This document shows, piece after piece, positions 22,659 through 34,814 of a DNA stretch of 38,459 nucleotides. Made by a program: the position numbers and the translations under genes. The notes below the pieces were generated by a model. It had not been told where the DNA came from and did not search any database. It worked only from the letters and a program-made list of their open reading frames with translations. Source of the stretch: Sedimentisphaerales bacterium. Lineage in GTDB: Bacteria > Planctomycetota > Phycisphaerae > Sedimentisphaerales > Anaerobacaceae. The stretch lies in the NCBI GenBank assembly GCA_030611315.1, contig JAUWPZ010000015.1, positions 1 through 38,459 on the forward strand. The letters run 5' to 3'. Position 1 is the stretch's first letter. Every line of letters begins with the position of its first letter.

Positions 22659-23288
22659 TCTGCTCGTCACTCAAAAAGGACACAGTTGATATTGGGTACA
22701 TCTCAAGAACGACCGGGATGTTGCTTTGTTCTGATTGAGAGGATTTTTTCTCCACCTGCGTTGGGATTCTCAACTCTTTATAAGAATAAAGACCGGTTTA
22801 GATATAAACAGTTTTTATCGGTTTTGGGATTTTTTTTTCAATCGAGACGGTCATTTTGACTACACTGGTATAGCAATAATTATCGGCCCTAAGCAGATGG
22901 GGACGATTGAACAAGAGCTGCATTCAAAAAACATAAATAAAATTCTTGAACATTTCTTAGCAAACAAACATCACTCTCTTAGGTTCATCGGGCGGAGCTG
23001 TTAGTTTCATAACTGCCTTATCAGCTTATAGTTATAACAACAAAATAGTCTAAAATCTTTTCCTGGTGCTTTGGTGTTATCATCCGGTAATTACAGCCAT
23101 GTTGGTGTTTTTGAGCGTGCATCAATAGCGATGTCGATTTCCTTGGAAATATTGCCTTTAAGGCGGCGAAAAAAGTTAAGCGGGCGCACTATTGAACCGA
23201 TAAATTTCATCGTGTGAAAAGGTATTTTGAACATTTTAGAGCTTTTGGGCTAACTGGGAGCTCGGTATTTTTTTGGAAGTGTAGAGCT
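22659..23288. other. A+T-rich region upstream of the exopolysaccharide operon
   Basis: 630 bases with no supported gene. An 89-codon plus frame at 22735-23004 has no ribosome binding site or recognisable family. The region is richer in A+T than its flanks and must hold the promoter of the exopolysaccharide operon. I found no sigma-54 type GG-N10-GC site. Confidence 0.5.
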
Positions 23289-25505
23289 ATGAAAAGGATA
23301 CGAAATACAACTAAAGACAAAGCAGTTTACTTCTTGTTCGCTACCTGCATTTTATTTTCCCTGATTTTCTCAGCTGGTTGCGGCAATAAGTTTTTTGACC
23401 CGAGACAGACCGGCAGGTTTCGTTCTGTTCCTGTGGTCAATGTGATACTGGACTCATTGGGTGTGGCGGAGGAAGAACCATCACTCTGGGAAGCTGCTGA
23501 AGAACCGCGATTAGATGATGTAGTAGCCCGTGATGGCGACTATGTGTTTAGTTCCGGTGATACTGTGATGGTATCCATTTTTGAACTGCTTCAAAGTGGA
23601 GTACTTTTTGTAAACCAATATGTAATTACCGAGACCGGCAGGATGTCCACCATACCGGAAGTTGGGGCAGTTCAGGCCAGAGGATTGACCGAATCGCAAC
23701 TCGAAGAAGAGATAAAGCGAATTCTCGATCCGAGCATACTGAAAGACCCGCAGGTTACCGTAACGTTGGTTGGCTCACAACAGCGTACGTTTTCAATATC
23801 GGGCACCGGTGTGCCGGTACCCGGCAGATACGCTATTCCGCGATATGATTTCAGGTTACTCGAAGCGATAGCGACTGCCGGGGGAATAAGCCAGTTTAAC
23901 ATTGACAATGTTTATGTCACACGTTCTGTTCAGGATGAAGGGGTGCCGGCCGAAAGGATTGGGATGCCGGGGCTTGGTGAGTTGGAACTTATTGAACCCG
24001 GGATAACTGAACCGGAAAATATTGAGCCGGAGAACTTAATCGAACCTGAGAGGGAGATGCTGGAGATTATAGCGCCTCGGGTGCAAAAAAATCGATATAA
24101 GTGGCCTGAAAGTAAGGTGGTTGTCACTTCTTCGGAAATGGCGACGGATGGGGAATATGAAATAGTCGTTATGCCGGAAGCTTTTGGACGGGTAAACAAT
24201 AGAAGGCGGGGCTGGGATGGTGCCAGAACAGTACCGAAGTTATCTGCCGGGCCGGTTGATTCGGATACGGTGGATGAGCCGCTAAAAGATGAGCCGGTGA
24301 GTGTCAAAGACATTTTGAGAACGCTGGCCGAGAAGTCTCGTCAAGACAACGCCGTCGAGCCGCAGGTGGGCGTCCAGGACTCGATGAAAACACCGATGGC
24401 AACGGACTCGCCTGGTGAAGAGAATACGGAAAATGAGATAAATGTCGATGAGATATTGAGGACATTGTCCGAGCGGTCCGCTCAGGACAGGGCGGATGAC
24501 CGAATTGCCCCGGAGAAAGTGGATGAGCAGATAGATGTCGACGACATACTCAAATCATTCGATGAGCCGGAGCGCCCTGGAGAGGTAGAAGAACCGATAG
24601 GTGTCGAAGAACTGCTCAGATCGCTCGACCAATCGGAATCGGCTCCTCCAGCCGAAACTAAGGAGGAGCAGATAGATATCGAAGAGATGCTCAAAACGCT
24701 GGGCCGGCCCGATGAGCCGGGGATGATAGATGAACAAATAGGGATGGAGGGCGTAGTAGATATATTGGATTCGACTGAAAAGCCGGTGGAAACAGAATTA
24801 GGGATGGTTCAGGATGAGGAGGAAGCCGGGCGAATTGAGTGGATTTTCCAGGATGGCAAGTGGATTCCTGTACAAGTCGGTAAGCCGAAAGTACAGGAGC
24901 CGGTGATTGAGATTGAAACGGAACAGCAGCCTATTGTTCCGAGCCCGGGTCCGTTCGTGAAGAAGTTGGTGATGGAGTTAGAAGGTGCTCCGGGAACTCG
25001 AACGCGCGTTATCAAGATTCCTGCCCGTAAACTGAGTTCCGGTGACCCTCGGTATAATATTGTGATAAAACCGGGTGATGATATTCAAGTGCCTGTTAAT
25101 GTTATTGGTGAATTCTGCATTATGGGTAACGTCAATCAACAGGGATACGTTAATATGACAGGCCGACCAATGACTTTGAAAATGGCTATAGCTGCCGCCG
25201 GCGGCTTGGGACCGCTGGCATGGCCAAAACGCTGTGAGGTGGTTAGAAGGATAGGCAATAAGAAAGAGGAAATAGTCAGAGTGGATTTGGATAAAATCGC
25301 CAGTGGCGAGCAGCCGGACTTCTTTATTAAACCAAACGATTTAATCAATGTCGGCACGCACTATAGCGCCCAATGGCGTGCAGTCTTGAGAAATGCCTTC
25401 AGGGCTACTTATGGATTCGGCTTCCTTTATGACCGTAATTTTGCTTATGACGATTACTACAGCAGTCGCCGCATTGATTTAAAGGAAGCTATTAAGTTGT
25501 TTTAA
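23289..25505 (+). CDS. outer-membrane polysaccharide export lipoprotein (Wza/OPX family) with a long acidic repeat insert
   Basis: 738 residues from the ATG at 23289 (lipobox FSAGC; an upstream GTG at 23214 would put the lipobox too deep). The poly-export domain is seen in YVFSSGDTVMVSIFE and RMSTIPEVGAVQARGLTESQLEEEI, followed by SLBB-like GTGVPVPGRYAIPRYDF and LLEAIATAGGIS. Then about 330 residues of acidic low-complexity insert appear (about 220-550) with six related repeats. The C-terminus has a second SLBB unit (IKPGDDIQVPVNVIGEFCIMG, AIAAAGGLGPLAW) and IKPNDLINVGT. Normal family members are about 350-400 residues without this insert. It is the first gene of the operon and would form the outer-membrane channel. 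Confidence 0.9.
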   Translation: MKRIRNTTKDKAVYFLFATCILFSLIFSAGCGNKFFDPRQTGRFRSVPVVNVILDSLGVAEEEPSLWEAAEEPRLDDVVARDGDYVFSSGDTVMVSIFELLQSGVLFVNQYVITETGRMSTIPEVGAVQARGLTESQLEEEIKRILDPSILKDPQVTVTLVGSQQRTFSISGTGVPVPGRYAIPRYDFRLLEAIATAGGISQFNIDNVYVTRSVQDEGVPAERIGMPGLGELELIEPGITEPENIEPENLIEPEREMLEIIAPRVQKNRYKWPESKVVVTSSEMATDGEYEIVVMPEAFGRVNNRRRGWDGARTVPKLSAGPVDSDTVDEPLKDEPVSVKDILRTLAEKSRQDNAVEPQVGVQDSMKTPMATDSPGEENTENEINVDEILRTLSERSAQDRADDRIAPEKVDEQIDVDDILKSFDEPERPGEVEEPIGVEELLRSLDQSESAPPAETKEEQIDIEEMLKTLGRPDEPGMIDEQIGMEGVVDILDSTEKPVETELGMVQDEEEAGRIEWIFQDGKWIPVQVGKPKVQEPVIEIETEQQPIVPSPGPFVKKLVMELEGAPGTRTRVIKIPARKLSSGDPRYNIVIKPGDDIQVPVNVIGEFCIMGNVNQQGYVNMTGRPMTLKMAIAAAGGLGPLAWPKRCEVVRRIGNKKEEIVRVDLDKIASGEQPDFFIKPNDLINVGTHYSAQWRAVLRNAFRATYGFGFLYDRNFAYDDYYSSRRIDLKEAIKLF
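24288..24767 (+). repeat. six acidic helical repeats coded within the export protein gene
   Basis: Six related stretches: DEPVSVKDILRTL, ENEINVDEILRTL, DEQIDVDDILKSF, EEPIGVEELLRSL, EEQIDIEEMLKTL, DEQIGMEGVVDIL. They begin near residues 334, 381, 412, 434, 459 and 481 of the protein. Each is an acidic pair, a hydrophobic position, then a short amphipathic helix ending I/L-L-[RK]-[TS]-[LF]; the last lacks the basic residue. The linkers between them are proline- and glutamate-rich and differ in length. Confidence 0.8.
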
Positions 25506-25597: not shown

Positions 25598-26587
25598 ATG
25601 GTGGACAAAATTGCCTCTTCTGTTGCTGAAATGCCTGGAACAAGTACACCTCTGCGAAAGCAGGAGTGGCGCGAGCTTGGACTGCATAGTTATATTAAGC
25701 TCCTGATAATAGGGGGGCTGTTCGTCTATCTTTTTTACAATGAGATTAGCGTTATTGTCAACAAATGGATGACAGACAGCAGTTGGTCGCACGGTTTTCT
25801 AATCCCCGGTTTTAGTTTATACTTCATCAACCAGCACAAAAAAGAGATTCTCAACCTTTACAGCAGCGGTCTTACCAGGCCGAATTACTTAGGTTTGGCC
25901 CTGCTGATTCTCGCGATTTTGTTTTATCTGTTCAACAAGGTCAGCCCATCCGGCTATGCATACTTCCAGCGTATTAGCGTAATAATGGCTCTTGGAGCCG
26001 TGGTATTGTTTTTAGGTGGGTGGCCTTTGACAAGATACATGTGGTTTCCAGTCGCATTTTTGATTTTTGCCGTGTCATTGCCGCAGAGATACTATGTTAG
26101 CCTGACTATGCCGATGCGGCATCTTGCTGCTTATGTAGCATCTACCTTGCTTAATTTGGTCGATAGTATAGAAACAACTGTCAGCGGCGTGGTTATAGAG
26201 GTGTTTTATAAAGGCCAGCCGGTGGAGCCTCCGCTCAATGTGGCCGAGGCCTGCAGCGGAATGAGGCTGCTGATGGCATTTTTGGCCTTGGGCGTTGCTA
26301 TGGCATACTTGCATTACAGGCCTATATGGCAGCGACTTGTCCTGTTGGCAAGCACAATACCGATAGCGATTGCCTGTAATGTCGTACGCGTTACAGTTAC
26401 AGGCTTTATTTATGTGCTGATACATCCGAAGTACACTCAGGGTGTTTATCACGATGCGCTTGGGCTGTCAATGTTGCCGTTGGCGTTTGCCCTGTATGGT
26501 TTTCTTGCCTGGTTTATGTCAAGCTTATTTATTGATGAGGCCGAGGCGGTTGCCGAGGATATTGTGGTTCGAAAGCATAATGCGTGA
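25598..26587 (+). CDS. exosortase (archaeosortase/exosortase family)
   Basis: 329 residues, about eight membrane segments. The three invariant residues of the family are present: Cys219 in ACSGMRLLMAF, Arg264 in CNVVRVTVTGF and His285 in YHDALG. The early SSWSHGFLIPGFSLYF motif is also typical. Exosortases are membrane transpeptidase-like enzymes that process PEP-CTERM proteins for sorting to the cell surface in exopolysaccharide-producing bacteria. The gene starts after a hairpin and has a weak ribosome binding site. It overlaps the next gene by eight bases. No PEP-CTERM protein is in the window. Confidence 0.95.
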   Translation: MVDKIASSVAEMPGTSTPLRKQEWRELGLHSYIKLLIIGGLFVYLFYNEISVIVNKWMTDSSWSHGFLIPGFSLYFINQHKKEILNLYSSGLTRPNYLGLALLILAILFYLFNKVSPSGYAYFQRISVIMALGAVVLFLGGWPLTRYMWFPVAFLIFAVSLPQRYYVSLTMPMRHLAAYVASTLLNLVDSIETTVSGVVIEVFYKGQPVEPPLNVAEACSGMRLLMAFLALGVAMAYLHYRPIWQRLVLLASTIPIAIACNVVRVTVTGFIYVLIHPKYTQGVYHDALGLSMLPLAFALYGFLAWFMSSLFIDEAEAVAEDIVVRKHNA

Positions 26588-26603
26588 TGCGAGATGCGAC
26601 ATA
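26576..26603. repeat. 7-bp repeat array running into a coding start, 4 units
   Basis: CATAATG, CGTGATG, CGAGATG, CGACATA, followed by a partial CGAGTTT. The array supplies the exosortase stop codon and the start codon and first residues (MRDARCDIR) of the next gene. Confidence 0.7.
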
Positions 26604-27332
26604 CGAGTTTATTTACAGCCGGCCTTTGTGATATGTGCAGTTGTGCTTATAGTAAGTAGCGTCGTTATCTCGAAAATAGAGATAGAACCCGAACCCTGGC
26701 CGTTGAAAAAGCCTTTAGACCTTTTGGATGAGGATGACTTGGCGCCTTATAAAGTAATAGAAAAAATAAAAATACAAAATGAAGAAATAGTCGAAGCATT
26801 AGGCACGAAAGACTATATTCAATGGGTTCTGGAAGATACAGATGAGGCGGCCGGCAGTAACGTCAAAAAATGCCTGCTGTTTATTACTTATTATGAGCTT
26901 GCCGATAGGATACCGCATGAGCCCAAGTTTTGCCATTTAGGGACCGGACATCAATTGCTGGCAGAGGATGGCTTGTCGGTCGAAATAAATGGACAAGACG
27001 GTAATGAGAATATACCGGGAAGGCATCTTGTTTTTTCGAGGACAAACTCCGGTATATGGCACCGGGGCACTAAGTTCTCAGTTTTTTACCTTTTTAGTGT
27101 AAACAGGATTTATGCCAACAGCAGAGATAGTGCTCGTTTGGCTCTTAATAGGAATATTTTTAGCAAACATTCGTACTTTTCCAAAGTCGAATGGAATTTT
27201 TTAACGAATGCCGGTGTGAAGACTTACTTGAGTAAAGAAAAGGCTGTTGCAGCGAGCGAAAAGCTTTTAGCTGTAGTTTTGCCTATTTTGGAAAGAGATC
27301 ATTGGCCTGAGTGGGAAAAGGCCGTGGAGTGA
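26580..27332 (+). CDS. EpsI-like exosortase-associated protein (DUF3485 type)
   Basis: 250 residues from the ATG at 26580, which overlaps the exosortase stop. One N-terminal membrane segment (about 11-29) is followed by an extracytoplasmic domain. The segment LLFITYYELADRIPHEPKFC with its HxPxxC motif matches the EpsI/DUF3485 pattern, as does the FSVFYLFSVNRIYANSRDSAR region. EpsI proteins are coded beside exosortases in exopolysaccharide loci; the precise role is unknown. An upstream frame extension lies inside the exosortase gene and is not used. Confidence 0.8.
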   Translation: MRDARCDIRVYLQPAFVICAVVLIVSSVVISKIEIEPEPWPLKKPLDLLDEDDLAPYKVIEKIKIQNEEIVEALGTKDYIQWVLEDTDEAAGSNVKKCLLFITYYELADRIPHEPKFCHLGTGHQLLAEDGLSVEINGQDGNENIPGRHLVFSRTNSGIWHRGTKFSVFYLFSVNRIYANSRDSARLALNRNIFSKHSYFSKVEWNFLTNAGVKTYLSKEKAVAASEKLLAVVLPILERDHWPEWEKAVE

Positions 27333-27498: not shown

Positions 27499-30400
27499 AT
27501 GGCAAAGAGGAGGTTGAATAAAAAAGTCGCACTTGTCGGCTTGGCGATTTTTGTGGTCGTTGTCTTGATTGCCATTTGGGCGATTTTGCATTTGAGCAGA
27601 GACCCGGAACCGTTTATCGAAGACGGAAATGCAGCATTGCTCGCAAAGGATTACAAAAAGGCCGAAATCAGTTTTCGCAATGCATATCAGCGGGCGAAGG
27701 ATGATTCGCTCAGAGAAGAGATACTTGTCAAGCTTGTGAATATGTATATCGAAAGTGACCAATGGAGCTTTGTGCCGTCGTACTGGGACCAAATAATCAG
27801 AATAAATCCGAAGAATGCGAAAGCTCGATACGGCCTGTTGAAGTACTTTTACACATGGGCTAACAGCGGTAGTAGGGGAGCTTGGCAGCAGGTTCGTGAG
27901 CGGGCATCGGATTTCCTGGAAGTTGCCGAAGGTACAAACCTGCTTATGGAAGAGACAGACAAGTTGGAATCTTTTGGAAAACGGGAAAAAGCAACTCAAG
28001 GACGCCTCCTCGGCCCATATTTGTACCTGCTAAGGGGAAGAGCTGCCTTTGAGATGACAAGGCTGGGAATGGTAACAAACAAGGAAGAAACGCTTGCCCT
28101 GGCAGTCGAAGATTTGGAGAAGGTCAAGGAGCTTGATAAGGGTAATCTCGATGCATACTTGTATTTGGCGCAGGCAGCCATCACAAGGTGGGAAATTTTC
28201 GGTTATTCTGGCAACATTGAAGAAAGGGACAAAGCTGCAGAGCAAGCCTTGGCGTTTTTAGCCGAAGCAGTTGAAAATGCAGGTGATAAACCGCAAGCAC
28301 ACATTAATCTTCTTGCACTGAAGCTTTCGTTAGCTCAACAGAGCGGCGCTACGCCCGTGAAAGAGAGAATTGAATTGCTTGAGCCTGAATATGTATCAAT
28401 GGCTGACAAGTTCCCCTCCAGTGCTGAAGTATTTACGGCGATTTCCGGATTCTATGCAATCTATTCAGCATATTCAGGTCCTCAAATCAGCTCAAAATAT
28501 CTTGATAAGGCTATTGAGTCGATAGAAGAAGCGATTAAGCTGGACAATGAAGAGGTAGCTTATGCAATAAATGCGGCCAATTTGTACTATCGGAGATTCT
28601 CTGTTTATGGACAAAAATCGGCGATTGACAAAGCAACAAAAGCGGCGAAGGATGCACTGACTTTACCGGATACACAAGATACGGAAGGGCCGCGAAGTTA
28701 CGCAAACAAAGTTAATAAATTTTTGTTACATTCTTTTCTTGCGCATTGCTGCATCGAGCAGGTAATCGAGCCTGCCGAGAAACAAACGAAGTCTCAAAAA
28801 GAAGCCTTGCTGAGAGATGCTGAGCAGGCAGTGCACGAAGTTGAGCAAATCCTTGGTATGGGCGAGGACCCGAAGGTTATGAAGTGGCGGGGAATGCTTG
28901 AGCTTGCGAGGGGCAATAAATACAGTGCCGTCAAGCAACTGTATGCGGCTTATGAACAGCTTAAAGCGGTTAAACCACCCGAACCACCTTGGCCGAAGGA
29001 TATAGGATTTGCGAGACTTTCTTACACCCTTGCGAAAATTTTTCAGAATACTTCCGAGGTTGGGGCAGCTATGGAATTTATGGCAAGTGCGCTTTATTCG
29101 GGCATTACCGATGACAAACCCGATGCGCGTTTGGATTATGTTGAGGCGCTTTTCAAGCTCAATGTATGGGCAGTGGCTTTGGGTAACATCAATGCTTATG
29201 AGCAGAATCATGGTCCTAGCGAGAGAAGTGAAATACTTCGCGTCAAGACTTATATCGGTGCAAACCAGTTTGATGAGGCCGCAACGGAATTGGCAAAAAG
29301 ACCTGACCCGGATGACCCCGAAATAATTAAGCTTAGCTTTGCTCTGGTGCAGGCCAAGATTGGGCAAATTAAACTTGCTATTGCAAGGCAAGCCAGAGGC
29401 CAGACAGCTCTTGACCTACAGGAGACGGAATCCGACGACAAAAGGACTGTTGAATACAGAGCTTCTTTGCAGTTAATGAAAACTGAATTGAACGACCACA
29501 TAAAACTTCGAGACCAGTTGGTGGAAAGACTACTGCCAAAAGAGCCGAATTCCATCGGACAGTCTTTACTTCTGAGTATTTGCGAAGATTACATACAGCA
29601 AGGCCTGACGAGTGAAGCCAAAGCTTTGGCCAATCAATTTTTGAAGTATTTTCCGGATAGTACAGCAGTTCTGATTTACGAAAAGATGCTTCATGAGCCT
29701 GAGCCCAGAGATATCTCGCAACAAAGGCGCAGGGAAATAGAAGAGCAGACACTGTTGAAAGTTGCTGACCCCGTTAGTAGGGCTTTGAAACTTGGCATAT
29801 TTTATGGCAGAACCAGAGAAACTGAGAAAGCCATTGCGGAATTCAAGAAGGTCCTTGAAGCGGGAACTTTGCCAAAGGTTGCGCCTGATGGGAAGACTTC
29901 TGAGAATACGGAAGAAGCAGATATGCGGCGCCTTGCAGCGAGCTATCTTTTTGATATAGCAATTCAGAAGAAGGATTGGGATCTGGCAGGACAAGTTATA
30001 GATAAGGCCAAACAAGAAAATCTCGATAATTGTGAAGGCCGGGTTTTTGTGGCCCGTTTCGCTGTGGCTAAAGAAGATTACAAGGATGCGTTGGAAGAGC
30101 TTAACGAATGCTTGAAGCAAAGGCCTATTTTTTCACGCGCTTATATGCTCAGAAGTCGGGTCAATGCCGCTCTTGGAGTTGAACGGGCGGCTATTGATGA
30201 TGCGCGAAAAGCGGTGTCGTTGAACCCTCTGGATAGAGCTATTGCAAAGGGCTTGGCCGATGTATTATACCGTGGCTATCAAAAGCTTGGCTCCGATGCC
30301 TCGCCCGAACAAACGCTTAAAACCAAGGTCGCTTTGGAAAGAGCAATCGCACTGAACCGCGGTGATGTTCAGTTACTTAGTCGCTACACCGAATTTATAA

Positions 30401-32484
30401 AATCGAAAGAACCAATAAAAGCAATAGCGATTCTGCAGGATTTACAAAGGGCCGCCCCGAGTCTACAGAATGCTTTGCGCCTTGGGCGACTGGCAACGAA
30501 ATCGGCACTTGAAGAAACGGATTCGACAAAAAAGGACGCATTGTTTGATATTGCTGAATCAACTTATGCTTGGGCCTTGAACGTACAACCAAACGAGCAG
30601 GAGGTGCTCTACAATTATGGAGAGTGCCTTCGAGCCAGGGGACGGTATAAAGAAGCCGAGGAAATGTTCCAGAAATCGAAAGACAGCGAATTGCTCTGGG
30701 ACCATTATTATCAGCAAGGTAAATATGAGGATGCCAAAAAGGTTTTAGAGCAGTTATATAGAAGCGGAAAAAAAGATATTAATGTGGTCAGAGGCCTCTT
30801 CCTTATTGCTGAAAAAACCAACGACAAGGAGGGTGTGAAGCAATATTCCGAAGAACTCTTATTACTTGATAACAATATAGAATACCGCCTTCTGCAAATT
30901 CAGGTTTTTCTCAAGGTTGGTCTTATCAAGGAAGCTGAATATAAATTGCAGGCTGTTCAGGAAAAGTTCCCGGGTGAATCAAGGACACTGCTGCTTGAGG
31001 CGTGGTTGACGATGAGGCAGGGTCAACTTGAAAAGGCATTGAAATTGATAAATCTAAGTCTTGAGAGTGATAGGGACAACGCGGCAGCGTGGCAGTTAAG
31101 AGGCGAGCTGCACTTCTTCAGTTCAAATTATGACCTGGCGATAAATGACCTTAAGAGAAGTAAGGAATTGTTAAGCAAGCCTTCTACTCAACTGTCTCTG
31201 GCGAAGGCTTATCTGCTGGCGGGCCGGGGTGATGATGCTATGACCGAACTTAAAAATACCATTGATGCACCCGGTGCTCCCCCACAGGCCAGGCTGTTGC
31301 TTGAGCAGCTTTACTTGCAGTCCGGCAGGAGAGCCGCGCTAGAAAGATTGTATGAGGATACGCTGAAGAAATTTCCCGATAGTGTACGCTGGCATAATCG
31401 GGCGGGGGCTTTGGCCATGACTACAGGTGAATACGTCAATGCAGAGCAATTGTACTTAGAAGCGTATCGCAAGAAACAGCAGGAATATCTGGGGAAAAAT
31501 ACGAAAGACTGGATGGAGGATGTGCAATACGTAACGGCGTTCGACGGCTATTTGAGGGCGCTTGTGGTGGGTGCCGGGACTCCCAATAAAGTGGGGTGGA
31601 ACCCACAAAAGTTGGACAAGGTCTTTGAGGAGTGTGAAAAATATCTTGACGGTGTTTTTGCTCCAATAGCTTTTTTAAGAATGGCTGAGGCGAAGTTGAA
31701 GCTTGATGATAGCAAAACCGCCACAGAATATTTCCAAAAAGCTGTCGAAAAGTCGGGAACCAATGAGGTGCTTGCCTCGGAAGTTTTGCTGAGAATGTTC
31801 CTGATGCTCGGCCCTGATGAAGTTTCAAGATATTGCAGGCAGAAGCTTGAAACCGACCCTGATTCGCTCGCCGCCTATTTTACACTGTTTAACCTGGCGA
31901 AGATTAACTCCCAGTACGACAAGGCTATCGTGTATATTGATAAGTGCATTCAACTCTCCGACCCGTGCAGCTTGGGCATGATTGATTACACGCTGAAAAG
32001 AGCGGAAATCTTGACCATGGCATATGAAAAAACTTCCGATAATAATTATCTTGAAATGGCTATCACAGATTACGAAAGTTTATTGGCTAAAATGCCGAAT
32101 AATATCAGTGTTCTGAATAATTATGCGTATATGCTCGCTGAGAACAATGAAAGGCTTCCACTGGCTCTTCAGTGTGCCCAGCAGGTAATTGGCTTAAAGC
32201 CGAACGAGCCGACTTTTTTGGATACTTATGGTTATGTGTTGTATAAAAACGGAAAAACTCAGCAGGCTGCCGAGTCCATGGTGGCCGCAATACAACAGTA
32301 TGACCGGGACCAAATTTCCATACCACCGGAGGTATATGAACATTTAGGTATGGTAAGAGAAAAACTTGACGCAAAAAATGAGGCGCTCACTGCTTATAAG
32401 CAAGCGCTGGAAGCGGGAGCAAATAGGTTGTCAGCGAAAAGTAAGGAGCGAATACAGAAAGCTATTGAACGTCTTTCGCCATGA
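27499..32484 (+). CDS. very large membrane-anchored TPR protein
   Basis: 1661 residues, with one membrane segment near residues 9-31 (VALVGLAIFVVVVLIAIWAI) and no lipobox. The rest is almost all helical TPR-like repeats, such as LYNYGECLRARGRYKEAEEM and AINDLKRSKELLS. The C-terminus (FLDTYGYVLYKNGKTQQAAE) matches the last repeats of the TPR proteins of PEP-CTERM loci (PrsT-like), which are usually about 900 residues; this one is nearly double. AAGGAG lies eight bases before the ATG. It probably scaffolds polysaccharide machinery in the periplasm. The gene is noticeably more A+T-rich than nifJ or the pyr genes. Confidence 0.88.
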   Translation: MAKRRLNKKVALVGLAIFVVVVLIAIWAILHLSRDPEPFIEDGNAALLAKDYKKAEISFRNAYQRAKDDSLREEILVKLVNMYIESDQWSFVPSYWDQIIRINPKNAKARYGLLKYFYTWANSGSRGAWQQVRERASDFLEVAEGTNLLMEETDKLESFGKREKATQGRLLGPYLYLLRGRAAFEMTRLGMVTNKEETLALAVEDLEKVKELDKGNLDAYLYLAQAAITRWEIFGYSGNIEERDKAAEQALAFLAEAVENAGDKPQAHINLLALKLSLAQQSGATPVKERIELLEPEYVSMADKFPSSAEVFTAISGFYAIYSAYSGPQISSKYLDKAIESIEEAIKLDNEEVAYAINAANLYYRRFSVYGQKSAIDKATKAAKDALTLPDTQDTEGPRSYANKVNKFLLHSFLAHCCIEQVIEPAEKQTKSQKEALLRDAEQAVHEVEQILGMGEDPKVMKWRGMLELARGNKYSAVKQLYAAYEQLKAVKPPEPPWPKDIGFARLSYTLAKIFQNTSEVGAAMEFMASALYSGITDDKPDARLDYVEALFKLNVWAVALGNINAYEQNHGPSERSEILRVKTYIGANQFDEAATELAKRPDPDDPEIIKLSFALVQAKIGQIKLAIARQARGQTALDLQETESDDKRTVEYRASLQLMKTELNDHIKLRDQLVERLLPKEPNSIGQSLLLSICEDYIQQGLTSEAKALANQFLKYFPDSTAVLIYEKMLHEPEPRDISQQRRREIEEQTLLKVADPVSRALKLGIFYGRTRETEKAIAEFKKVLEAGTLPKVAPDGKTSENTEEADMRRLAASYLFDIAIQKKDWDLAGQVIDKAKQENLDNCEGRVFVARFAVAKEDYKDALEELNECLKQRPIFSRAYMLRSRVNAALGVERAAIDDARKAVSLNPLDRAIAKGLADVLYRGYQKLGSDASPEQTLKTKVALERAIALNRGDVQLLSRYTEFIKSKEPIKAIAILQDLQRAAPSLQNALRLGRLATKSALEETDSTKKDALFDIAESTYAWALNVQPNEQEVLYNYGECLRARGRYKEAEEMFQKSKDSELLWDHYYQQGKYEDAKKVLEQLYRSGKKDINVVRGLFLIAEKTNDKEGVKQYSEELLLLDNNIEYRLLQIQVFLKVGLIKEAEYKLQAVQEKFPGESRTLLLEAWLTMRQGQLEKALKLINLSLESDRDNAAAWQLRGELHFFSSNYDLAINDLKRSKELLSKPSTQLSLAKAYLLAGRGDDAMTELKNTIDAPGAPPQARLLLEQLYLQSGRRAALERLYEDTLKKFPDSVRWHNRAGALAMTTGEYVNAEQLYLEAYRKKQQEYLGKNTKDWMEDVQYVTAFDGYLRALVVGAGTPNKVGWNPQKLDKVFEECEKYLDGVFAPIAFLRMAEAKLKLDDSKTATEYFQKAVEKSGTNEVLASEVLLRMFLMLGPDEVSRYCRQKLETDPDSLAAYFTLFNLAKINSQYDKAIVYIDKCIQLSDPCSLGMIDYTLKRAEILTMAYEKTSDNNYLEMAITDYESLLAKMPNNISVLNNYAYMLAENNERLPLALQCAQQVIGLKPNEPTFLDTYGYVLYKNGKTQQAAESMVAAIQQYDRDQISIPPEVYEHLGMVREKLDAKNEALTAYKQALEAGANRLSAKSKERIQKAIERLSP

Positions 32485-32573
32485 TGTGCCGTACCTGACG
32501 CATCGTGCGGAAAAATATACGTGATAATGATAAGATGTTTGCTTTATTTGCTTAGTTCTGATTGGAGATTAAA

Positions 32574-34814
32574 ATGGTTGAAGAAAGGCCAATAGCTTTA
32601 AATAAAACAACAGCACCGGCTGGGCGTAAGCCCCCGGTTGCTGCCGGGATGACACCTAAAGAAGTTCTGGGCGTATTGCGACGGCACGTGTTGTTGATTG
32701 TTGCTCTGACTATATCGGGTTTGTTAATAGGCGGCGCCAGTTGGTATCTTTTGCGCGAATATAGCCCAAAATATGCCGCGAGAACTTATATGGAAGTTCT
32801 CCCGTCCGTCGATGTAGACCCTACAGTCATTGAGCCAGCTGTGGTCCAGAAGGAGATTCGATACGGCTATCGTCTGACAATAGCCAGCCTCATCAAACAG
32901 CAGAGTAGTTTGCAGAGATTGCTTGGGAGCGACGAAGTTAAGAATACCAAGTGGTTTCGAAGCAAAGGCAATGAGCGAAAACGCGTTAAGGATTTGGAGC
33001 GCAATTTTGAGGCTGTCGCTTACAGAGACGGTGATTTTGTCGAGATATCAATGACCTGTAGTGGCGAGGACGCCGATAGAGAGTCGGCATTGATAGTCAA
33101 CGAAATGTTGGACCAGTTTGTCGGTCAACAAGGCGTTACTAAAAAAGCAGAAATCAAAGGAAAGCTGACACAGCTTAATGATCGGTTCAGAATTGTTCAA
33201 ACAGAGCTGGACCGTGCCAACGCGGAGTTGGATGCGGTTCGTAGGGATAAGAATATATATGATCTTGATATGCCTGCCGGCTACGAGTACAGGCACACAA
33301 TCACAATAAGATTGAATGATTTGGAACTTGAGCAGAGTGATCTTCTTCTGGCAATAAGCCAGCTTAGAGCTGTCGTAGCAAATTATGTGGAACAGGCGCA
33401 GGGGGCTTATAGCGACCAGGTTGAAATTCTAATACAGAATGATCCTATTATGCTTTTGCTTGCTCAGCAGCTTGCTCTTCAAGAGGCTGACCGTCAGGGC
33501 AAATTAACAAGGCTCGGGCTAAATCACAGAACAATGCGTCAACAGCAGGATACCATGAATAAAATCAGCGAGGAGATAGAAAAGAGGAGAAAAGAAATTG
33601 CAGAGCGGACCCGGCAGGCGAATCTCGAAAATGCAAATGATGGCTTGATCGTGTTGCAGCAGAGGTCTATGGAGCTGGAAAAATTGCGGCAGAAAGCGGA
33701 AGATGAAAAGAGAGACCTTGACATGGCCCGCATACAGTATGCGGAGCGGGTGGCTCGAAGAGACGAGAGAATCATAATGCTTGACTCGATCAAGCAGCAA
33801 ATCGAGAAGTTGAACATAATACATGATGACCCGGAGACGCCTAAGGTGAGAAAAACCGGAGATGCTCCGGTACCTTTGGATATGGTGCTATCCCGGCAGT
33901 GGCACGTTTGGTGCCCCAGTGGAGCGGTGCTGGGATTTCTCCTTAGTGTGGGTCTTGCCTTCCTTATTGAGTTGGCCAATGACCTCGTGAGGACGCCAAG
34001 AGACGTAGGAAGATATTTGCATGTTCCGCTTCTGGGTGTTATTCCTGATGCGGCTGAAGATAACCAGGTTCGGGGTGTCGAGCTTTGTCACGTTGTCCGT
34101 CAGGCGCCTTATTCTATTATAAGCGAATCCTACAGGCGGTGTCGGACCAACTTAAAACTTTCCACGCCGGCGGAATCTTTGAAGACCGTTCTTGTCGGCA
34201 GTGGTATGGCAGGGGACGGCAGGACATCGGTGGCCGCTAATCTCGCGGCAACTTTTGTTGCTGAAGACAAGAAGGTGCTGTTGATAGACGCTAACTTCAG
34301 GCAGCCGAGCTTGCATACGCTGTTTCCGAAGTCGGCAGGCGAAGACATGGGAATCGAGAGTTTTGATTTCGGCTTGAGCAGTGTGCTGACCAAGCAGTGC
34401 GGTTATAATGATGCGGTAAGGTCCAGCGGTATTGAGGGACTTGATATAATCGATTCGGGGCCGGTGCCGAGTAATCCGGCTGAACTGCTCGGAAGCACAC
34501 GCATGGAAGAACTGCTGAAAGAGCAGCGCAACAACTATGATTATATTATAATTGACACACCGCCGGTGTTGCTTGTCAGTGATGCCAAGGTCTTCGCAAA
34601 GCTGGTTGATGCGACATTATTGGTATTTAATGCTGCCGCTACAAAGAGAGGCGCCGCTCTGAGGACCATTCGCGAAATGAGAGAAGTCGGCGCCACGGTA
34701 GTTGGCTGTGTGCTCTTCGGCGTAAGGTCTATGAAGGGTGGCTATTTCCAGGAGCAGTTCAAGTCTTACAGAAAGTATCAAAAGGTGCAGCTCGCTGCTG
34801 CTGGCACGGCCTAA
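32574..34814 (+). CDS. Wzz chain-length determinant fused to BY-type tyrosine kinase
   Basis: 746 residues from the ATG at 32574 with GGAG upstream. Wzz part: first membrane segment about 45-65 (VLLIVALTISGLLIGGASWY), a long coiled-coil periplasmic region, and a second membrane segment about 445-465 (AVLGFLLSVGLAFLIELAND). Kinase part: Walker A reads GMAGDGRTS with Arg550 where the family has Lys, Walker A' LLIDANFRQP, and Walker B YIIIDTPPVLLVSDA. The tail has three Tyr (GYFQEQF, SYRKYQ) suited to autophosphorylation. Such proteins control polymer length and export. It is the last gene of the operon, ending at the terminator at 34888. Confidence 0.93.
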   Translation: MVEERPIALNKTTAPAGRKPPVAAGMTPKEVLGVLRRHVLLIVALTISGLLIGGASWYLLREYSPKYAARTYMEVLPSVDVDPTVIEPAVVQKEIRYGYRLTIASLIKQQSSLQRLLGSDEVKNTKWFRSKGNERKRVKDLERNFEAVAYRDGDFVEISMTCSGEDADRESALIVNEMLDQFVGQQGVTKKAEIKGKLTQLNDRFRIVQTELDRANAELDAVRRDKNIYDLDMPAGYEYRHTITIRLNDLELEQSDLLLAISQLRAVVANYVEQAQGAYSDQVEILIQNDPIMLLLAQQLALQEADRQGKLTRLGLNHRTMRQQQDTMNKISEEIEKRRKEIAERTRQANLENANDGLIVLQQRSMELEKLRQKAEDEKRDLDMARIQYAERVARRDERIIMLDSIKQQIEKLNIIHDDPETPKVRKTGDAPVPLDMVLSRQWHVWCPSGAVLGFLLSVGLAFLIELANDLVRTPRDVGRYLHVPLLGVIPDAAEDNQVRGVELCHVVRQAPYSIISESYRRCRTNLKLSTPAESLKTVLVGSGMAGDGRTSVAANLAATFVAEDKKVLLIDANFRQPSLHTLFPKSAGEDMGIESFDFGLSSVLTKQCGYNDAVRSSGIEGLDIIDSGPVPSNPAELLGSTRMEELLKEQRNNYDYIIIDTPPVLLVSDAKVFAKLVDATLLVFNAAATKRGAALRTIREMREVGATVVGCVLFGVRSMKGGYFQEQFKSYRKYQKVQLAAAGTA

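Follow-up and report, generated by a model that had tools for sequence, protein, structure and literature searches.

Repeated predicted helices in a long SLBB1 loop of a planctomycete polysaccharide export lipoprotein

Introduction

What is the role of a long, acidic insert in a polysaccharide export protein, and why does it carry a repeated helical motif? The question is raised by a polysaccharide export lipoprotein gene at 23289-25505 (+ strand) in a stretch of DNA of 38,459 nucleotides (hereafter, the window) from a Sedimentisphaerales bacterium, a Phycisphaerae-type planctomycete. OPX proteins form rings, with eight subunits in the case of Wza. To our knowledge, it is an open question how export rings in the outer membrane are attached to the other components of polysaccharide systems linked to exosortases. 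A previous sequence-only reading of this DNA suggested that an array of short helices in the insert may bind a large TPR protein encoded in the same operon.

The export protein and its operon

The gene and its neighbors are as follows.

23289-25505, + strand: OPX (Wza-like) polysaccharide export lipoprotein, 738 aa (Pfam Poly_export and two SLBB_2; Foldseek Wza)
23379-23381, + strand: lipobox Cys31 of OPX (lipobox FSAGC)
23529-23768, + strand: Poly_export (PES) domain (PF02563, E 6e-15)
25598-26587, + strand: exosortase, EpsH family (PF09721, E 1e-54; TIGR02602 above cut-off)
26442-27332, + strand: EpsI-like ORF 3' of the exosortase (conserved in 36/36 loci; family name by position only)
27499-32484, + strand: TPR protein, 1661 aa, with an N-terminal membrane anchor (TPR_16, E 6e-26)
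32562-34814, + strand: Wzc-like chain-length determinant/tyrosine autokinase (TIGR01007 above cut-off)

The protein scores 55.6 bits against Poly_export (PF02563, Pfam cut-off 28), and SLBB domains follow downstream, with two stretches matching PF22461 (64.4 bits) and a corresponding fold in the AlphaFold2 (AF2) model. The Wza fold is recovered by Foldseek comparison of this model with 2w8h, 9r64, 2j58 and 9n9a (E about 1e-8 to 1e-7). At the C-terminal end there is no Pfam match to Wza_C, the outer-membrane helix domain of OPX class 1, and short helices are predicted at residues 696-708, 717-725 and 731-737. Translation probably starts at ATG 23289, which is followed by a signal peptide and the lipobox, rather than at GTG 23214 of the longer ORF (23214-25505, + strand). 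Similarly, the listed start of the EpsI-like ORF overlaps the exosortase gene, and its true start is probably later. The OPX gene comes first in a block that continues with exosortase, EpsI, TPR and Wzc, and this block is intact at each of the 36 loci inspected, the majority of which lack the motif described below. The same order and content are seen throughout the sampled order (36 loci, e.g. L076-L109).

The insert lies within the first SLBB domain

23775-23930, + strand: first half of SLBB1, comprising strands, helix and R-strand (AF2 strands 167-171, 179-182 and 207-214; sequence match to SLBB2)
23931-24998, + strand: acidic insert of about 356 aa occupying the SLBB1 hairpin loop, pLDDT <50 over most of its length (AF2 model, alignment)
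24999-25100, + strand: closing half of SLBB1, RVIKIPARKL..NIVIKPGDDIQVPV (AF2 strands 571-578 and 598-600; sequence match)
25101-25358, + strand: SLBB2, with an uninterrupted hairpin loop of 3 residues (PF22461, E 1e-17; loop of 3 in 56/56)

SLBB1 is opened after its R-strand (...NVYVTR) and resumes at RVIKIPARKL..PGDDIQVPV, with about 356 residues between. The equivalent hairpin loop is 3 residues long in SLBB2 of 56/56 homologues and 123-432 residues long in SLBB1. Thus, the insert is the SLBB1 loop rather than a linker between SLBB domains. The sequence-only reading was right that the protein carries a long insert, and it had placed that insert between two whole SLBB domains, an arrangement that is rejected by the AF2 model and the alignment.

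The insert has a net charge of -49 over 360 aa, within a range of +1 to -57 among relatives, and the 56 homologue inserts combined contain a single cysteine. No known family is found in the insert in Pfam at E up to 10. A stretch conserved across the family, EREMLEIIAPRxQ..WPESKVVIxSSEM, opens the insert (23985-24240, residues about 233-317).

A repeated motif within the insert

24294-24341, + strand: motif copy 1, PVSVKDILRTLAEKSR (VSVKDILRTL at 24297; predicted helix 339-354, pLDDT about 83)
24363-24392, + strand: degenerate copy QVGVQDSMKT, after copy 1 (by inspection; aligns with the second helix, VDVENAMESF, of the G035 lineage)
24435-24482, + strand: motif copy 2, EINVDEILRTLSERSA (INVDEILRTL at 24438; strict and matrix scans, AF2 model)
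24528-24575, + strand: motif copy 3, QIDVDDILKSFDEPER (IDVDDILKSF at 24531; strict and matrix scans, AF2 model)
24594-24641, + strand: motif copy 4, PIGVEELLRSLDQSES (IGVEELLRSL at 24597; strict and matrix scans, AF2 model)
24669-24716, + strand: motif copy 5, QIDIEEMLKTLGRPDE (IDIEEMLKTL at 24672; strict and matrix scans, AF2 model)
24735-24782, + strand: degenerate "copy 6", QIGMEGVVDILDSTEK (missed by strict, loose and profile scans)

Pfam, the net charge and the motif scans all bear out the earlier description of an OPX gene with a long acidic insert and a repeated motif within 24288-24767. That region holds five strict copies of a 16-residue consensus, [PQ]-[VI]-[SDGN]-V-[DEK]-[DE]-[IL]-L-[KR]-[ST]-[LF]-x-E-[RP]-S-R. 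Six copies had been counted; the sixth (IGMEGVVDIL) is degenerate, lacking the I/L-L-[RK]-[TS]-[LF] core and falling below threshold. The core itself was correctly recognized, while the preceding "acidic pair, hydrophobic" is better described as [SDGN], an N-cap position with a hydrophobic residue on either side. The order of N-cap residue, capping acidic residue and cap-flanking hydrophobics suggests a well-started amphipathic helix. All five copies are predicted by AF2 as isolated helices, with a pLDDT of about 83 for copy 1 and about 51-61 for copies 2-5, and their hydrophobic moment is 0.57-0.69, against a mean of 0.28 over the insert.

When the insert was shuffled 20,000 times with its composition preserved, no shuffle reached five strict copies (mean 0.0006). 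This comparison is post hoc because the pattern was taken from the same sequence; hence, homologues provide the real test. The last three copies are spaced by 22 and 25 residues, and late successive copies show a period of 21-25 aa in separate lineages. Aligned copies are 65%-74% identical to a reference copy at the DNA level, so the duplications look old. When the PDB was searched by sequence with profiles of the helix and the hairpin, all matches were attributable to chance or to designed helices; the N-terminal half of the motif is an idealized helix start that is also found in designed proteins.

Distribution and selection of the motif

Homologues were scanned with a position matrix trained on the window copies only, at a threshold passed by 0.5% of shuffled inserts. 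Matches were found in 20 of 55 homologue inserts, where 0.3 would be expected, and most are far over threshold. A second pass gave at least one match in 23/56 proteins, with some of the new singles (L017, L018) weak, and none in 33/56. Retention of the insert without the motif had been named in advance as evidence against a docking array, and this is what the 33 proteins show; the other 23 match. Since those 33 homologues keep the insert, the array is a lineage-specific elaboration rather than the main function of the insert. In most relatives with one copy, this copy lies near insert residue 100, at the place of copy 1, which is probably its equivalent. Four to five copies are found in the G033, G013 and G080 lineages and in the window, and the G035 genus has two strong copies accompanied by weaker second helices, arranged as tandem helix-turn-helix units. 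The inserts of L004, L042, L046, L047 and L048 contain tandem repeats of a two-helix unit of about 70 aa, SVRDILKTLEKRSRNQxKWLNG followed by VDVENARESFQELARS, predicted as helix-turn-helix with pLDDT up to 85 per block. The motif is confined to OPX proteins in the material searched: 28 of 28 profile matches of at least 16 bits fall in OPX (2162 ORFs, 36 operon loci), and in four genomes the profile has no match below E 0.04 except the OPX copies.

In a tree of the TPR proteins, the motif-bearing genomes, including the window, form one clade (SH-aLRT 100). This clade also includes genome G018, with a decayed copy in its OPX, RVSVEETLKRVSG. In the OPX core tree the window falls outside the motif group, on a long branch among motif-less rows, and AU tests do not reject a single motif clade (p 0.07-0.27). 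The OPX core thus groups with motif-less relatives and the TPR protein with motif-bearing ones, with weak support; recombination of the N-terminal half could produce such a pattern. Given the AU values, a recombinant origin of the window OPX is not claimed. Traces of an ancestral motif in motif-less relatives give a weak combined signal (Fisher p 0.005) from few cases, such as L008 and L015, and are suggestive only.

Is the motif under selection? In three pairs from the G033 genus, pN/pS is 0.20-0.37 for the motif, 0.51-0.63 for the linkers and 0.16-0.22 for the core, and pairs from the G035 genus mostly agree. The only single-copy pair tested, L028/L049, has a motif pN/pS of 1.05, i.e. unconstrained. 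When the window is aligned with relatives, conservation in motif windows does not significantly exceed that in other insert windows (p 0.08-0.37). Selection is partly shown by these data: within the best-sampled genus, the motif is under purifying selection and evolves like the folded core. The motif repeats are genuine, and selection acts on them in one bacterial lineage. The earlier suggestion of amphipathic helices recurring along an acidic, disordered tether stands, given the helix predictions for all five copies, the conservation across genera and the purifying selection in one genus.

A tryptophan hairpin retained across the order

24828-24881, + strand: EW hairpin, RIEWIFQDGKWIPVQVG, near the insert end (predicted beta-hairpin 515-521/524-530; order-wide insert element)

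A second element of the insert is far more widespread. W518, G523 and W525 are invariant in 56/56 homologues, within the pattern xEWxFxDGKWVPVQVG. There are one to three copies per protein, with two or three in many (L013, L020, L053). Among 248 sampled genomes of the class, the hairpin profile is found in 42 of the same order and 3 others; family f5 has a degenerate form only. The hairpin matches no known family in Pfam and no PDB entry. Its two tryptophans might contact sugar or take part in beta-augmentation, judging from the residues themselves. Compared with the motif, the hairpin is the better candidate for any order-wide function that the insert may have.

What does the array do?

The explanation that we tentatively favor, at somewhat less than an even chance, is a lineage-specific multivalent array of conditional helices that binds another periplasmic part of the export machine. 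A long flexible loop, presumably disordered in vivo, would extend into the periplasm from SLBB1 of the OPX ring, with the Trp hairpin near its end retained across the order. A short amphipathic helix with good capping would have arisen in this loop within one lineage and then duplicated, giving five in the window. Each helix would probably be loose alone and fold on meeting its partner. Because OPX proteins form rings, a translocon with the presumed number of subunits would display tens of copies, acting as a multivalent clamp. The likeliest partner would be a periplasmic part of the same machine: the TPR protein first, with the Wzc-like protein or neighboring OPX subunits next.

There is evidence on both sides of this reading. 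The motif is repeated and conserved in a tether predicted to be disordered, as expected of a docking array, and a high-pLDDT helix within a low-confidence loop has been linked to conditional folding (PMC10622901). However, copies 2-5 fall under the pLDDT of 70 used for conditional folders, and most relatives that have this operon lack the motif. Moreover, because the N-terminal half of the motif is an idealized helix start, its conservation may reflect nothing beyond helix stability. That generic, well-capped start also fits an elastic spacer grown by near-neutral tandem duplication, with the helix as a stiffener and a 22-25 aa unit lengthening a drifting loop without specific binding. The wide variation in insert length (127-436 aa) and copy number, the absence of the motif from most relatives and the unconstrained single-copy pair would all follow, but retention of the same motif over many genera would not, nor would a motif pN/pS near that of the folded core with linkers evolving at roughly double the rate (G033 genus and several G035-genus pairs). 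We consider a mere spacer fairly unlikely. The helices could instead pack with those of adjacent OPX subunits into a collar that steadies the ring, with no outside partner. Their strong amphipathicity would suit such packing, as would the helix-turn-helix pairing of the G035 motif with a second helix, whereas the range of 1-5 units and of net charge among relatives would be odd for a packed, symmetric collar, and a model of the paired unit has a pTM of 0.19. We regard self-association as unlikely.

Could the partner be the very large TPR protein of the periplasm? Such docking is one form of the array reading and is already counted within our confidence in it. The N-terminal membrane anchor implies that the TPR protein should face the periplasm, its gene lies in the OPX block in 36/36 loci, and in the TPR tree the window protein clusters with those from genomes that have the motif. 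There is also a precedent in alginate export, where an N-terminal AlgX peptide docks in TPRs 9-10 of AlgK (PMC9734138). In both cases a flexible peptide of an export component would be held by periplasmic TPRs, although AlgX provides a single extended peptide rather than a helix array, and the comparison is one of function, not of sequence relation. Topology, operon and precedent are the grounds for considering this docking. On the other hand, the same TPR gene is present in every motif-less relative inspected, and the grouping in the TPR tree is equally expected from species descent. Co-occurrence of motif and TPR gene, proposed earlier as a check, is uninformative on binding because the block is present in all 36 loci with or without the motif. 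We think this specific partner rather unlikely. A further extension, in which the array, as a graft in the SLBB1 loop, would link the OPX ring across the periplasm to the TPR scaffold anchored in the inner membrane, with copy number tuning the grip, is improbable. We know of no description of such coupling of two membranes for capsule-type export. Partners can be sought directly with short peptides from the conserved loop, i.e. from the universal Trp hairpin and the lineage-specific array, and relatives that naturally have 0, 1, 2 or 5 copies allow comparison.

Relation to known export systems

The protein is an OPX variant with an array of predicted helices in the SLBB1 loop. It shares the lipobox, Poly_export domain, two SLBB domains and fold of Wza/OPX proteins (classes 1-3, PMC9603273), and differs in the SLBB1 hairpin insert, which SLBB2 lacks; Pfam gives no Wza_C match. 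The terms "planctomycete" and "disordered" are absent from the main text of that OPX survey, and no such insert is described in the papers searched, whose coverage was incomplete. The same genome encodes another OPX-like protein, a distant one (G000:C82:24610-25179; 27% identity, in an alignment that leaves the insert uncovered).

The locus also resembles the XrtA/PEP-CTERM exopolysaccharide locus (EpsH, PrsT, EpsE-type; PMC1569441), in which OPX, exosortase, TPR and chain-length/kinase genes are likewise grouped. Its OPX and TPR proteins, however, score well below the family cut-offs: 55.0 bits against 180 for TIGR03027 (XrtA/PEP-CTERM export protein), 62.5 against 262.65 for TIGR03028 (EpsE) and 144.5 against 312.2 for TIGR02917 (PrsT). 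A further likeness is that the PEP-CTERM cut-off is passed at 19 or more places in this genome, so the operon exosortase has many likely substrates.
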